Positions 58,442 to 64,000 of a DNA stretch of 64,000 bases are shown one piece after another. A program made the position numbers and the translations under genes. Below the pieces are notes generated by a model. The model did not search any database. It was not told the origin of the DNA and worked only from the letters and a program-made list of their open reading frames with translations. The DNA comes from Halopseudomonas xinjiangensis (lineage in GTDB: Bacteria; Pseudomonadota; Gammaproteobacteria; Pseudomonadales; Pseudomonadaceae), in the NCBI GenBank assembly GCA_011050525.1, contig DRFO01000030.1, forward strand, positions 248,001-312,000. Direction: 5' to 3'. Every line of letters starts with the position of its first letter. Within the stretch, counting starts at the first letter, position 1.

Positions 58442-60106
58442 TTATTGAGGGTTAGCCCAATACGCGCAGCTGTGATAGTCCACGAACTCGGTTGCAGGTA
58501 CCTGGCTCAATGTTACCGGGTCCAGATCTAGCAGGTTTCCTTGAAGGCCCGTGTATCCATCCCACGTGACGGCCCCGGCGGCCCCATCGGTGCTATTCGG
58601 GTCGCTAAACTTGGCAAAGTTGGCCCAGTATTCGACCATCCTGCGGGACAGTTCGATCTGTGCCTCGGTTGCACCTCGTTGTTGCAGAGCCGCTTCATTG
58701 TTTAGCACATACTGGATTTCAAATGCATGTGTCGCGCCCAGGGGGAAACCAGGAGAGGCGCCAAGAATGTTGGGCGCATTGCGGTCAGTGAACCAGTAAC
58801 CCCAGACCGGAACCTGCGCGCTTCGAACCTGATTCAGTTGATTGAGGTTCGGGCAGGCAAAACGCCAATCGGTTTGGATTGCGGCTAGAGCCAGAGGGTA
58901 TACCTGTGCCTCGGTCGTTGCGATTCCTTCTTCGCGGGTGTCAATCAGGTAGTCTTCAGCGATGGGCTCTCTAGGGTAGGGCCTCGGATCCAAGGCCAGC
59001 AAATCGTTCACCTTTGTCTGATAATTATCGGCCGTGACCGGTCTTTGACTAAATACGTCGATCGCCACGAACAATCGGCCTTCGTCCTGGTTGCTGCCCA
59101 TCAGCATTGGCGCCTGATTGAAGTCGCCGCTTGAAAGACCGGCATCTATCGACAGCGGCAATATCCCGGTGTTGGTGGCGTTCACCACGGGAATATAATT
59201 GCTCAGCTGATTTGCCAAAACGGTTGCTACCGGCAGCCCACGTAAGCACTGCCCTGTATCCGCCGCCTCATCGCATCCAGTCGCTTCGACGAACGGCGTG
59301 CCAAGGCCTATCTGGCCTGCCGCCTGGCTTACCTGAGTGGGATTGTATGCACCGCTCTGGACGATGGCTTTGTGAAACAGCCCTTCGGACGAGGGCGATA
59401 CGACGTGGCTCAGCACGCTGTGACCGCCTGCCGACTCGCCAAAGATGGTGACGTTATCGGGATCGCCATCAAACGCGCTGATGTTTTCCTGCACCCAGCG
59501 AAGCGCTTCCTGCTGATCCATCAAACCGTAATTGCCATAGTTGCCGGACTCGTCAGCCAGGCTGGAGTGAGGCAGAAATCCCAACGCGCCAAGTCTGTAG
59601 TTAATAGTGACCACCACCACTCCCTGCTCAACCAGACGGGAGGGCTCGTAGCTGGCTCCGCCAGAACCTGTTACAAAGGCGCCGCCGTGTATCCAGAGCA
59701 TTACCGGATAGTCGCCTGGGGCCTGGGGCGCATAAACATTCAGGAACAGGCAATCCTCAGCTGTGCTCTCGCTGCCAAAGGTCCCGCCGGGCTGGGCACA
59801 ATCCGCACCGAAGTCTTCGGTCAGTTGAAGTGTCGAGGCACGATTCAGGGCTGGTTCTGGTGCTGCAAAGCGAACCGGCGGAGCGGCGTAGGGAATACCT
59901 CGAAAAACACGCATATTGGTGAGCTCGACACCTTGGACATCTCCCTGTGCGGTCGTGGCAATCAGCGGATTAGCTGGCGGCGGCGTGGCCGCGTCGGAAT
60001 CAGAACCTGAGCCGGACAGGCACCCACCTAAGCTCGCAGCGATGATAACCATGGAAAGAGAGGAGAGAAGAAACCGGGGGCGGGCCAGACTGGCTTTCAT
60101 CGTCAT
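58442..60106 (-). CDS. Type-B carboxylesterase lipoprotein (copy 1)
   Basis: A 554-residue esterase/lipase of the cholinesterase-like (type B) family, with a signal sequence and lipobox SLGGC, so it is membrane-anchored outside the cytoplasm. The catalytic Ser is in FGESAGGHSVLS and the oxyanion region is WIHGGAFVTG. Compared with the neighbouring paralogue, the usual PPVGxLRF motif has lost three residues (PPVRFAAP). Substrate unknown, perhaps short-chain esters or polymers. It has no close neighbour gene upstream other than its paralogue. Confidence 0.88.
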   Translation of the reverse strand: MTMKASLARPRFLLSSLSMVIIAASLGGCLSGSGSDSDAATPPPANPLIATTAQGDVQGVELTNMRVFRGIPYAAPPVRFAAPEPALNRASTLQLTEDFGADCAQPGGTFGSESTAEDCLFLNVYAPQAPGDYPVMLWIHGGAFVTGSGGASYEPSRLVEQGVVVVTINYRLGALGFLPHSSLADESGNYGNYGLMDQQEALRWVQENISAFDGDPDNVTIFGESAGGHSVLSHVVSPSSEGLFHKAIVQSGAYNPTQVSQAAGQIGLGTPFVEATGCDEAADTGQCLRGLPVATVLANQLSNYIPVVNATNTGILPLSIDAGLSSGDFNQAPMLMGSNQDEGRLFVAIDVFSQRPVTADNYQTKVNDLLALDPRPYPREPIAEDYLIDTREEGIATTEAQVYPLALAAIQTDWRFACPNLNQLNQVRSAQVPVWGYWFTDRNAPNILGASPGFPLGATHAFEIQYVLNNEAALQQRGATEAQIELSRRMVEYWANFAKFSDPNSTDGAAGAVTWDGYTGLQGNLLDLDPVTLSQVPATEFVDYHSCAYWANPQ

Positions 60107-60281
60107 ATTATTATCCGTTATTGTTGGTTGAGCTGATCAAAGTGGCAATTTGCCTTGATTCAGGTCTAAAACGATAAAAGATTTTTGGCTGCTGTGCGAA
60201 GACCCATCCGGGTGATCCCGGATGCGGCTGTGATGTGGTAAGTCAGGTCAAGAGAGCCGGGGAGGGACGAGAGGGTATAAC

Positions 60282-60309
60282 GACAAAAGCCCCCTTGGGG
60301 GCTTTTGTC
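60282..60309 (-). terminator. Perfect palindromic terminator after esterase copy 2
   Basis: GACAAAAGCCCCC (60282-60294) and its complement GGGGGCTTTTGTC (60297-60309) form a perfect 13-bp inverted repeat. It lies 32 bases beyond the stop of esterase copy 2 on the minus strand, and the T-rich arm can act as the release tract. Confidence 0.75.
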
Positions 60310-60340
60310 TTGCTGGACGAATAGCCAAAGCGTATCAGTC

Positions 60341-61996
60341 TTAAGGGGTGCCAGCATTCCAGAAGTCGCAGTAGTGGAAACCTGCGAAATCAGCTGACGG
60401 GACCTGACGAAGCGTGGCCGGATCAAGATCGATGATGGTTTCATCGACATTGAACTGATCCCACTCCACTGATTCACTCGCACCATCGGTGCTGTTGGGG
60501 TCACCAAACTTGGCAAAATTGGCCCAGTAGCCGGTCATGGCATCCGCCAGGTCGAGTTGCGCTGCGGTCGCGCCGCGCTCTTCCAGCGATTCATTATTGG
60601 CCAGTACGTATTGGATTTCGAAAGCATGCGCGGCGCCCCAGGGGAATCGCGGGGTGAACGGCAAAATACTGGGAGCGTCGCGGTCGGTAAACCAGTAGCC
60701 CCACACAGGCACCTGGGCGTCGCTGACCTGATTCATCTGATTCAGGTTGGAACAGGCGAAACGCCAGTCGGTCTGAATAGCGGCCAGTGCCAATGGATAA
60801 ATAACCGGATCGTTTGGCGCAATGCCTTCGATATCTTGCATGCGCTGCAGGTAGGTGTTGGCTACGGTGATGTTGTCATAGGCGCTAGCGGGAAGCAGGT
60901 TATTTACCTGTTGCTGATAGTTCCCTGCAGTCACCTCACCGGCCAAGCGTTCCTGTATTCCCACAAACAGCCGCCCTTCATCCAGATTGTTGCCAAGCAC
61001 CATGGGCACCTGGTTGAAATCTCCGGTGCTTAGCGCTTCGTCAATGGAGATAGGCAGCGTGTCGGTTCCCGTGACCGGTATGGAACTTGAGACCTGATTC
61101 GCCAGAATATCTTCCACTGGCAACGCTCGCAGGCACGCGGCTATATCCGGGTCATCCGAACATCCGGTATTGGTAGCAAACGAATTGCCGAAAATGGTTT
61201 CGCCAGCAGCCAAGGTGACTTGTCTGGGGCTGTAGGCGCCGCTCTGCACTATCGCCTTGTCGAACAGTCCGGCGGCAGCGGGAGAAGCCACCTGGCTCAA
61301 TACGCTATGACCACCAGCGGATTCTCCGAATATAGTTACGTTGTCCGGATCGCCGCCAAAACCATCGATATTCTCCTGGACCCAACGCAGTGCTTCCTGC
61401 TGGTCCATGAGACCATAATTGCCGGAAGAGCCCGTTTCGGCCGTCAAGCTGGCATGCGGCAGGAAACCTAGCGCACCGACCCGGTAGTTGATGGTGACCA
61501 CCACAATGTCTTGTTCAACAAGCCGACTCGGTTCGTAGCTGCTGCCGCCTGAGCCGGTGACCAACGATCCCCCATGAATCCACACCATGACCGGGTAATC
61601 ACCAGGCTCTGGCGGCGCGTAGACGTTGAGAAACAGACAGTCCTCATCGACGCTGTCGACGGCAAAGGTACTACCGCCCTGCGGGCAGGCTGAGCCGAAT
61701 TCTTCATTCAGCTCAAGAGTGCCATTGCGGTCTGGTGCAGGCTGGGTAGCGGCAAATCGCAACGCGCCCACTGGTGGTGCTGCATAAGGAATGCCGCGGA
61801 ACACGCGCATGCCCTCAAGTTCAATGCCTTGTACGTCGCCTTGCTGAGTACTGATAACCAGCGAGTTCTCTGGCAAATCGTCGTCGTCGTCATCATCGTC
61901 GTCGTCCAGGCAGCCCGTTAGCGCGGTTGCGAGGATGGCGACTGAAAGGGTGGTAAGAAAAAAACGTGGTTTGAACACATCAGTCATTTTGGTCAT
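60341..61996 (-). CDS. Type-B carboxylesterase lipoprotein (copy 2) with poly-Asp
   Basis: A 551-residue paralogue of copy 1, with lipobox ALTGC followed by Leu and ten consecutive Asp. The catalytic Ser is in FGESAGGHSVLSQV, and the motif PPVGALRFAA is complete. The start is the ATG at 61996 with a GGA nine bases upstream; an in-frame codon at 62083 would precede the signal peptide. The gene was probably duplicated with copy 1. The two genes are separated by a terminator and are not one clear operon. Confidence 0.88.
   Translation of the reverse strand: MTKMTDVFKPRFFLTTLSVAILATALTGCLDDDDDDDDDDLPENSLVISTQQGDVQGIELEGMRVFRGIPYAAPPVGALRFAATQPAPDRNGTLELNEEFGSACPQGGSTFAVDSVDEDCLFLNVYAPPEPGDYPVMVWIHGGSLVTGSGGSSYEPSRLVEQDIVVVTINYRVGALGFLPHASLTAETGSSGNYGLMDQQEALRWVQENIDGFGGDPDNVTIFGESAGGHSVLSQVASPAAAGLFDKAIVQSGAYSPRQVTLAAGETIFGNSFATNTGCSDDPDIAACLRALPVEDILANQVSSSIPVTGTDTLPISIDEALSTGDFNQVPMVLGNNLDEGRLFVGIQERLAGEVTAGNYQQQVNNLLPASAYDNITVANTYLQRMQDIEGIAPNDPVIYPLALAAIQTDWRFACSNLNQMNQVSDAQVPVWGYWFTDRDAPSILPFTPRFPWGAAHAFEIQYVLANNESLEERGATAAQLDLADAMTGYWANFAKFGDPNSTDGASESVEWDQFNVDETIIDLDPATLRQVPSADFAGFHYCDFWNAGTP
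61877..61908 (-). repeat. GAC/GAT codon microsatellite coding poly-Asp
   Basis: A run of GTC/ATC triplets on the plus strand, ten Asp codons on the minus strand, directly after the lipobox of esterase copy 2. Both codons are used, which lowers slippage compared with a pure repeat, but length changes are still likely. Confidence 0.7.
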
Positions 61997-62160
61997 TGTT
62001 GTTATTCCGTATTGAGTGAAACGCTCTTGAAGCCCGCAGTCTCGCACCGGGCTGATCGCGACTATGGAATCGCCTTTATCCATCCCGCCTTCGATCCCAT
62101 TCGTAGCTCCGATCGTTTAGACTTCACTGTTGGCTAAAGTTTTTAATATCGGAGACGTAA

Positions 62161-62286
62161 ATGTCTGGACATTCATTCCCCATCAGTTACATCGAACCGG
62201 TATTCAGGCCGCCCAGCGAGGCGCACTCGCTTATTCTGCCGGTGACCAATGGGTGTTCATGGAACAAGTGCACCTTTTGCGATTAG
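62161..62286 (+). pseudogene. Radical SAM protein gene, truncated by the island
   Basis: GGAG at 62151-62154 precedes an ATG at 62161 that opens a 41-codon frame. Its product, [20 protein letters not shown] and then [16 protein letters not shown], is the clear N-terminus of a radical SAM protein whose cluster motif is CX4CX2C. The frame then meets TAG at 62284-62286 and loses all family similarity. The intact family runs to several hundred residues and usually continues CxMY after the last Cys. The break falls at or just after 62280, where the recombinase-bearing element begins. The missing part should lie at the right end of the element or be lost. Confidence 0.85.
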
Positions 62287-62404
62287 TTACCCCCGCCCGT
62301 AGTCCTAAATACCGCCTCGGAATCTATCTTTTTCTATAAAAGAACCGATTTAGCACCAGATACCGCTTGCCTGTATGGATAGCCAAGATTAGAGTTCTCC
62401 CAAT

Positions 62405-62414
62405 TTTGTACAAA
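62405..62414. promoter_or_regulatory. Palindrome upstream of gmtY
   Basis: TTTGTACAAA is a perfect ten-bp palindrome, 28 bases before the gmtY start. It may be a regulator or recombinase site, or chance in an AT-rich stretch. Confidence 0.25.
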
Positions 62415-62442
62415 TAAACCAAAAAGCATTGCGGAATAGCGC

Positions 62443-63825
62443 TTGGCTATCATCCTCGAATCATCCCACCGAGAATTCAGAACCTTTATTGCTGGAGCGA
62501 CTGGCGTTCAGTCAGTTTTGCCGGTCATCGTCACCGAGCATGGGGTTCTGGATCAGTTCGCTCGCTACATGCACCTGAACCGGCTCAAGAGCCGTGCATG
62601 GCAAGAGTCTTCGACTTTCGCGGTGAGGTTGCTGTTGGAGTACATGGAGGCCAACCAGGGCTTCTATGAGGCGGCGAGGGCATTGTTCACAGCCTTTTCC
62701 GACGCGCTCTACACCGGCACTGTCTCGAATAGCATCGACCCCTCCGGCCTATGGTGGCAGCCCAGACAACCGGACGATGCCGGCAAGTTGATCGGCCATG
62801 TCACCCGATTCAGCGATTGGCTTGCGGTTGTCAACGAGGACGCCCAGTTGCAACTCAATCCCTGGCGCCACGCGACTCGGCATGAGGAACGGCTAAATTG
62901 GGCGGCATACGCGCATCGCAGGGACAACGCGTTCCTTTCTCATTTGTGGCGTTCCAAGCCTCAAACGAACCAATCCAGAGCCGTGCGCTCAAGGACAATG
63001 CCCGTAGAACGGCAAACGGCTGCCAAGGCGTTTCCGGAGGAATACTTCGAACTACTGGTAGTCGAGGGTTTTCGCAGGCGAGTGCGGGATTCACGTGGGC
63101 CGATTGATCTTCGCAATGTTCTCATTACCTATCTGATGCACTTTGGCGGGCTGAGGCTATCCGAGGCGCTATCGTTATGGAGCGAGGACGTTAGCATCGA
63201 GGCGGGAGAGGTGATCGTCCGTGTGTACCATCCCGAGTACGGCCTAGCACCTAGGGGCAAGGGCAATCGTGCTGCTTATCTGCAAAGCCAATACGGTCTG
63301 CAACCCCGTAACCGGCTTGTTAAAGCGACCGACCCGCTTTTCCTAGGGTGGAAGAACGGTCTGATTACCGATCCGCACCGCCGCTGTTTCGAGGTCTTCT
63401 TCTACCCTCATGAAGCCGGGCAGGTTTTTGCTGAGTTGTGGCGGGACTACCACCCGAAGCAGCGTGTGAAGCCGAAGGTCGGTGACGGCCATCCCTACGC
63501 CTTCACCAACAAGAGCGGTCAGCCTTACTCGCACCGGATGTTCCGCAAGGCTCACAAGCTGGGTGTTGAGCGTGTCGGTTTGGTGTACGAGAAGATCGAG
63601 GGAACAACACCGCACGGCCACCGACATGCCTATGGACAGCGACTAGCCCGCGATGGCGCCGACTCGCTGTTACTCAAGAATGCCATGCACCATGCCTCGA
63701 TTACATCGAGTCAGACCTACACGCAGCCGACTACCACGCAGATGCGCCAGTTTCTCCGCGACCTTGAAACGCGGCTGCGCTTGCAGCACAGAGACAGCGA
63801 CCTAGATCCGTATACCGAGGACTGA
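62443..63825 (+). CDS. gmtY: GMT tyrosine recombinase GmtY
   Basis: A 460-residue DNA breaking-rejoining enzyme. The N-terminal half (REFRTFI to the NPWR and RHEERLNWAAY region) is typical of GmtY. The catalytic domain has Arg in HFGGLRLSEAL (R238), the HxxR box in TPHGHRHAYGQRL (H391 to R394), His in AMHHAS and the nucleophile Tyr in SQTYTQP (Y426), so it should be active. The start is a TTG with GGA eight bases upstream. gmtZ begins three bases after its stop. The assignment to GmtY is from remembered family sequences; a generic tyrosine recombinase is certain. Confidence 0.88.
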   Translation: MAIILESSHREFRTFIAGATGVQSVLPVIVTEHGVLDQFARYMHLNRLKSRAWQESSTFAVRLLLEYMEANQGFYEAARALFTAFSDALYTGTVSNSIDPSGLWWQPRQPDDAGKLIGHVTRFSDWLAVVNEDAQLQLNPWRHATRHEERLNWAAYAHRRDNAFLSHLWRSKPQTNQSRAVRSRTMPVERQTAAKAFPEEYFELLVVEGFRRRVRDSRGPIDLRNVLITYLMHFGGLRLSEALSLWSEDVSIEAGEVIVRVYHPEYGLAPRGKGNRAAYLQSQYGLQPRNRLVKATDPLFLGWKNGLITDPHRRCFEVFFYPHEAGQVFAELWRDYHPKQRVKPKVGDGHPYAFTNKSGQPYSHRMFRKAHKLGVERVGLVYEKIEGTTPHGHRHAYGQRLARDGADSLLLKNAMHHASITSSQTYTQPTTTQMRQFLRDLETRLRLQHRDSDLDPYTED

Positions 63826-63828
63826 CCG

Positions 63829-64000
63829 ATGCCCGCAAAGAAGAACTTTTGTGCCTATGCCGAGGCCCAATCAGCAGCCCAGGCGCTGGGTTTCAATAGC
63901 CAGACTGAATACAAAAAGCGTTATCGTGAAGACCCTCGGCTGCCGGCCAGCCCCCATGAGGTCTATGCTAATACTGGTTGGACGGACTGGTATGATTTCC
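63829..64000 (+). CDS. gmtZ: GMT protein GmtZ, N-terminal part (runs off the window)
   Basis: The first 57 codons are in the window, starting MPAKKNFCAYAEAQSAAQAL. They form one phage-integrase repeat unit: A-AAQALGF, then Y-KRY, DPRLP and GWTDWYDF. Repeats of this type fill the N-terminal part of GmtZ. GAGG lies eight bases before the ATG, and it follows gmtY by three bases, so the two are co-transcribed. The C-terminal part is beyond the window. Confidence 0.8.
   Translation, partial: MPAKKNFCAYAEAQSAAQALGFNSQTEYKKRYREDPRLPASPHEVYANTGWTDWYDF

Follow-up and report, generated by a model that had tools for sequence, protein, structure and literature searches.

The window, the whole stretch of 64,000 nucleotides analysed here, corresponds to G000:C30:248001-312000 in a draft genome of 44 contigs; contig C30 itself ends at 316751. 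In the window, the 5' fragment of a radical-SAM gene runs directly into the left end of an island that encodes gmtY, gmtZ and, beyond the window, gmtX. The features are:

62161..62286, plus strand: 5' fragment of the radical-SAM gene, comprising 41 codons plus a junction-derived TAG; 3' part at G000:C2:844-1626
62254..62280, plus strand: codons of the CX4CX2C cluster motif (C-S-W-N-K-C-T-F-C), as read from the sequence
62277..62282, plus strand: host core TTGCGA, 6 bp, the left core adjoining the left end of the island; boundary possibly 1-2 bases off
62283..62310, plus strand: left end of the island, TTAGTTACCCC..., an imperfect inverted repeat of the right end on contig C2
62387..62401, plus strand: subterminal GATTAGAGTTCTCCC, similar to the left end, a possible accessory recombinase site (putative function)
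62443..63825, plus strand: gmtY, tyrosine recombinase of 460 aa (NF040693, 499.6 bits, cut-off 340)
63829..64000, plus strand: start of gmtZ, 1284 aa, extending to window-equivalent 67683 (NF047926, 615.6 bits, cut-off 600)
outside the window, after gmtZ: gmtX (NF040692, 184.2 bits, cut-off 40)

The reading frame of the fragment starts with an ATG at 62161, preceded by a ribosome-binding GGAG at 62151-62154. The preliminary description of this DNA had read these signals as leading into 41 radical-SAM codons that close after the CX4CX2C motif, and the codon positions agree. The last Cys codon, TGC, occupies 62278-62280 and is followed by GAT (62281-62283) and TAG (62284-62286), the stop thus being the second codon past the last Cys, as had been noted; likewise, the recombinase gene begins 160 bases on, at 62443, when counted after 62283. 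The 41-residue piece alone matched no Pfam or NCBIfam family. It is matched, at 82-95% identity, in 24 of 37 other genomes searched and, own genome included, in 23 of 25 genus genomes, with no match in genus genomes G004 and G015. The uninterrupted gene that was expected in close strains is found in 20 of the 23 matching genus genomes as an open frame of at least 300 aa, the exceptions being the own genome, G013 and G011. The full-length protein of an intact relative contains the Pfam Radical_SAM domain; its NCBIfam matches were only distant, all far under the cut-offs. Beside the split gene, on the minus strand at 58442-62083, lie two adjacent, similar genes, which we take to be carboxylesterase-like.

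The gmtY, gmtZ and gmtX genes are adjacent and all score above their NCBIfam cut-offs, which places the element among the GMT islands. The start codon of gmtY is TTG, with ATG at the same place in the S. xanthomarina relative (L072). Residues R238, H391, R394, H417 and Y426 are invariant across four aligned GmtY sequences and are presumably the catalytic residues. INT_rpt and Integrase_2 domain matches were obtained at gmtZ. Stretches similar to the subterminal GATTAGAGTTCTCCC occur in L072, L078, L079 and L080.

The 3' part of the radical-SAM gene, whose existence had been predicted, is present in the own draft genome on another contig (C2:844-1626) and is 86% identical to residues 40-300 of a relative's protein. 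Ahead of it, the left end of the island recurs as an imperfect inverted copy: the island closes with ...GGGGTAACTAC at C2:848, AGACGA occupies 849-854, and host sequence GATGTATACC begins at 855. Judged by the gene that results on rejoining and by the agreement of the terminal sequences, the two island ends appear to belong to a single island, which in this draft is spread over two contigs: it runs from 62283 beyond the end of C30 and, across a gap, up to C2:848. In an S. xanthomarina strain, by comparison, an island of 10.5 kb lies on a single contig. The own genome yielded no additional copy of the radical-SAM gene. The attachment site does not lie within a tRNA gene, and the proposal that it lies in a protein gene holds, since the target is the radical-SAM gene, its 3' part has been located and the flanks rejoin.

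A scan of named genomes with the four aligned GmtY sequences gave 220 relatives, the best 80 of which were analysed. Sixteen of these best 80 of 220 loci cut the radical-SAM gene at the same nucleotide as in the window, 29 cut greB, four more have a named target (L079, L090, L091, and L093, the locus of G013) and the remaining 31 lack an assignment. Together with the window and G013 (P. neustonica), the elements at this nucleotide total 18; 15 of them are in Pseudomonas, Stutzerimonas, Marinobacter and Oceanospirillum, and the rest are L080, the window and P. neustonica. G013 shares an identical contig with a Pseudomonas neustonica SSM26 record; it carries the same cut, and its island bears the gmt operon at the right end instead of the left. 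In the P. neustonica island, the left stretch (L023:1-500, G013:C6) enters repeated GTGACCG motifs at the contig end, which to our eye resemble IS21-type ends.

Both gene parts are present in 15 of the 16 cut-gene genomes among the best 80 of 220 loci. The left end of the island, TTAG or ATAG, directly follows TTYTGYGA in 15 of the 16, as well as in the window and G013; the 16th (L071, in G052) has a 6-bp deletion. When the flanks are rejoined without loss or gain, one open frame results in 16 of 17 pairs, window and G013 included. These counts of pairs leave out G060, for which one part was found, and G052, whose left end is damaged and which stands as the 17th pair, left unjoined with its 6-bp deletion. 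The rejoined frames read ...CTFCEMYT or CSFCEMYT... and are 297-337 aa long, stop to stop; that of G063 (309 aa) has a C-terminus unlike the others. Exact matching of the motif in a draw of 390 genomes of the order gave 59 uncut and 3 cut genomes. The cut ones are the own genome, a genome in which a gmtY-like frame follows the junction, and a third with a scar. No replacement radical-SAM copy was found in the own genome, G013 or the 16, where further matches amounted to two weak ones of ~20 bits. The GmtY tree groups the targets: radical-SAM elements fill 12 of 16 rows in one clade and 6 of 10 in another, greB elements 30 of 36 in a third; 8 of the 26 rows in the two radical-SAM clades sit outside this gene.

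Between the right end of the island and the host sequence (G/A)ATGTAYAC stand six bases. Seventeen right junctions were read, and the left and right cores could be compared in 16. A short direct repeat had been expected at the edges of the island, and this expectation fails as a general rule: the right six-mer equals its own left core in two of the 16 (G053 and G064) and differs in the other 14. The ends of the islands are inverted repeats with a 6-bp spacer mostly foreign to the host. Fifteen distinct right six-mers occur among the 17 junctions; their last base is A in 16 of 17, so that the exact right boundary may be 1-2 bases off. In G050 and G051 the last 500 island bases are 99.8% alike, whereas the six-mers, TGGTTG and CGACCA, are unrelated and the host arms are 80% alike over 61 bases. 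These two islands therefore represent two insertion events; across the class, with 14 of 16 six-mers differing from the left core, insertions into the radical-SAM gene seem to have been mostly separate. The island identity of 0.67 obtained for G051 and G052 was set aside as an apparent indel misalignment.

The footprint of SEs and of Tn554, whose target is radC, consists of the target's 6 bp at the intA-like end and a foreign 6 bp at the other. We find this pattern in 14 of the 16 radical-SAM junctions and in all 14 readable greB junctions (see below). For SEs, and as also noted for Tn554, the available text of PMC10214605 describes the target's six bases as staying at the left and the six from the donor's left flank as entering at the right. 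By analogy, the six bases at the right end of the GMT islands may come from the left flank of the donor. If so, 14 of the 16 copies originated elsewhere than at the radical-SAM site; with that many footprints differing from the host core, most copies would have come from other sites, plausibly plasmids. Two plasmids were considered as donors, pMAQU02 (left core TGCTGC) and the HS-18 plasmid (TGCAGG), and rejected: neither core equals any of the 15 distinct radical-SAM six-mers, and no donor site was identified among them.

Apparent scars of island loss, located at the codon where the other genes are cut, occur in two genomes, and both genes stay broken. In G011 (L024), TGGAATAACTACCTGCAAGATG replaces the motif; as read, this is the host left arm fused to the right end of the island with its six bases. 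An ordinary small deletion is the alternative for this genome, in which no GmtY scored above the cut-off. In G283 (L188), TTAGTTACCCT, read as a left island end, is fused to host sequence beyond the motif.

The greB gene is cut at one codon, in the opposite sense, in the 29 loci counted above among the best 80 of 220 and in G019 (loci of this class include L060, L095-L098, L100 and L101). Fifteen of these 30 genomes were searched, and in all 15 the split 5' part is accompanied by a full-size greB frame of 156-172 aa. A full greB lies downstream of gmtY in 21 of the 30 loci, and directly behind gmtX in G019; it looks like a spare copy of the target gene, carried by the island. The 6-bp geometry is the same as in the radical-SAM class: 14 of 15 right junctions were readable, the six-mer differs from the left core in all 14, and L098, whose 5' part does not abut any recognisable end of an element, stands outside this count.

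Other targets were also seen. L079 cuts a nicotinate phosphoribosyltransferase gene, and its GmtY falls within the clades that hold the radical-SAM elements. The elements L087, L089, L090 and L091 are near-identical (94-98% over the first 170 bases) and sit elsewhere than in the radical-SAM gene: L090 and L091 cut homologous GmrSD_C-domain genes, one base apart, L089 lies at a place homologous to the element site on plasmid pMAQU02, and L087 is at a third site. Because near-identical elements occupy different sites, the target can shift within a GmtY clade. Among the related elements L090, L091, L089 and L185, homologous GmrSD_C-domain genes are hit twice and a second homologous site twice, in one case on plasmid pMAQU02. 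A helicase gene, upstream of gmtY in five loci, was considered as a further target and dropped, as the matches reach the end of the query and give no sign of a split gene.

The explanation that we favor, and hold with high confidence, is that the radical-SAM gene is cut by a site-specific GMT island. Islands with related GmtY recur at one nucleotide, at the last cluster Cys codon and the codon following it; the target's own 6 bp remain beside the left end, and the 6 bp at the opposite end mostly bear no relation to the target. GmtY and GmtZ, helped by GmtX, would join the ends of the donor copy into a circle holding 6 bp of the former left flank, and the circle would then insert at attB, by the route that has been put forward for SEs and remarked on for Tn554; losses, of which two are seen, would leave scars without restoring the gene. 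Because the insertion separates the cluster motif from the remainder of the protein, the enzyme is most likely inactivated.

An island of the ordinary lambda or ICE type would exchange identical cores and restore the gene by precise excision. Tyrosine recombinases are indeed encoded, 16 of 17 pairs yield an open gene once their flanks are joined, and the cores of G053 and G064 are equal, but with attL and attR cores unequal in 14 of 16 cases and both observed losses being imprecise scars, this reading appears very unlikely. Hardly any credence can be given to one ancient insertion, inherited vertically, as the source of every cut gene. It would account for the cut at one nucleotide throughout and for the six-mer and host arm common to G051 and G052, yet it is already contradicted by the open full-length frame in 20 of 23 matching genus genomes, by 15 different six-mers in 17 junctions, by near-identical elements with different six-mers in diverged hosts, and by the two GmtY clades.

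The preliminary description had further suggested that the recombinase recognises the conserved coding sequence of a metal-cluster motif. Its claim of site specificity is supported by the 18 elements at the same nucleotide; what does not stand is the last Cys codon as the part recognised. Since this codon lies in the exchanged 6-bp core, the recombinase probably reads the flanking arms, and the recognised part is probably the flanking codons, Cys-Thr-Phe at the left and Met-Tyr-Thr at the right, rather than the last metal-binding codon. We regard it as unlikely, if somewhat less so than the lambda or ICE type, that the recombinase reads the cluster codons themselves and that metal binding is the reason for the choice. 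All 18 elements do cut at the last cluster codon, but that codon is inside the swapped core, its counterpart at the right end varies freely, and the greB, nicotinate phosphoribosyltransferase and GmrSD_C-domain targets are stretches without a cysteine cluster; conserved codons may merely provide a stable DNA target.

Beyond site-specific insertion into the radical-SAM gene, there may be target-specific GMT subfamilies that home on conserved codons (the radical-SAM cluster and GreB, with nicotinate phosphoribosyltransferase and GmrSD_C in single or paired cases) and copy themselves out with the donor's left 6 bp, the greB class carrying a spare whereas the radical-SAM class destroys its target. 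We rate the chances of this broader scheme as even. Under such copy-out, 6 bp flanking the donor on its left would turn up at the new right end, and each island would thereby preserve its last address.

A search of 72,556 plasmid records found relatives of GmtY (E <= 1e-30, all below 60% identity) on 141, of which 85 are typed as conjugative, and a GMT element of the Marinobacter clade resides on the conjugative plasmid pMAQU02. Plasmids may thus serve as vehicles for the islands. Phage carriage was considered and dropped: no GmtY match at E <= 1e-20 was found in 50,697 phage records, and viral contigs yielded two relatives that are 37% identical.

The founding GMT paper is reportedly that of Mahata et al. 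(2024, Nat Microbiol). It stands outside the titles and abstracts that we covered (on GMT, Tn554/radC, radical-SAM/greB islands and VPA1269/VPA1270), in which no GMT target in a radical-SAM gene or greB was found. GMT islands are treated in PMC12039261, PMC12715929 and PMC12259885. The element described here resembles the GMT islands of those sources, as far as their available text goes, in having gmtY, gmtZ and gmtX in the same order and above curated cut-offs; it differs from that text in belonging to a set of members bound to one radical-SAM site with a 6-bp footprint. SEs possess four core genes, intA, tfp, intB and srap, in the portions available of their description, whereas here gmtY, gmtZ and gmtX follow one another without a fourth gene between them; because tfp and srap are part of that four-gene definition, we do not file the window element as an SE. 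Tn554, as partially accessible in PMC3414803 and PMC10214605, is like the GMT element in its three genes, unique target site and 6-bp footprint; it is a Firmicute transposon with another target gene, and the two are likened here by architecture alone. GInts, in the accessible text of PMC5385486, are likewise site-specific islands in protein genes, but have four gin genes and imperfect direct repeats of 10-11 nt at their ends. The dusA integrases (PMC4482086) also define site-specific islands in protein genes, but, like the GInts, do not have the GMT set.

Exact ends, a target site and a footprint are now given for a group of GMT islands, and their movement is linked to that of Tn554 and SEs. 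The recurrent cuts at the same spot in various bacteria show how GMT islands pick landing sites, and the choice of target by GmtYZX becomes testable by a simple plasmid assay. The right-end six-mers, if donor-derived, would become markers of island origin.

GMT islands are said to spread defence and antibacterial genes in the available text of PMC12039261. In the window element, the contig ends 4.75 kb beyond the window, and past gmtX an ORF and a helicase gene seem to survive only as a decayed remnant. The remnant lies at L002:10313-10752; the 146-aa ORF and the helicase are intact in relatives such as L179 and L059. The helicase is elsewhere found downstream of gmtY, as apparent cargo.
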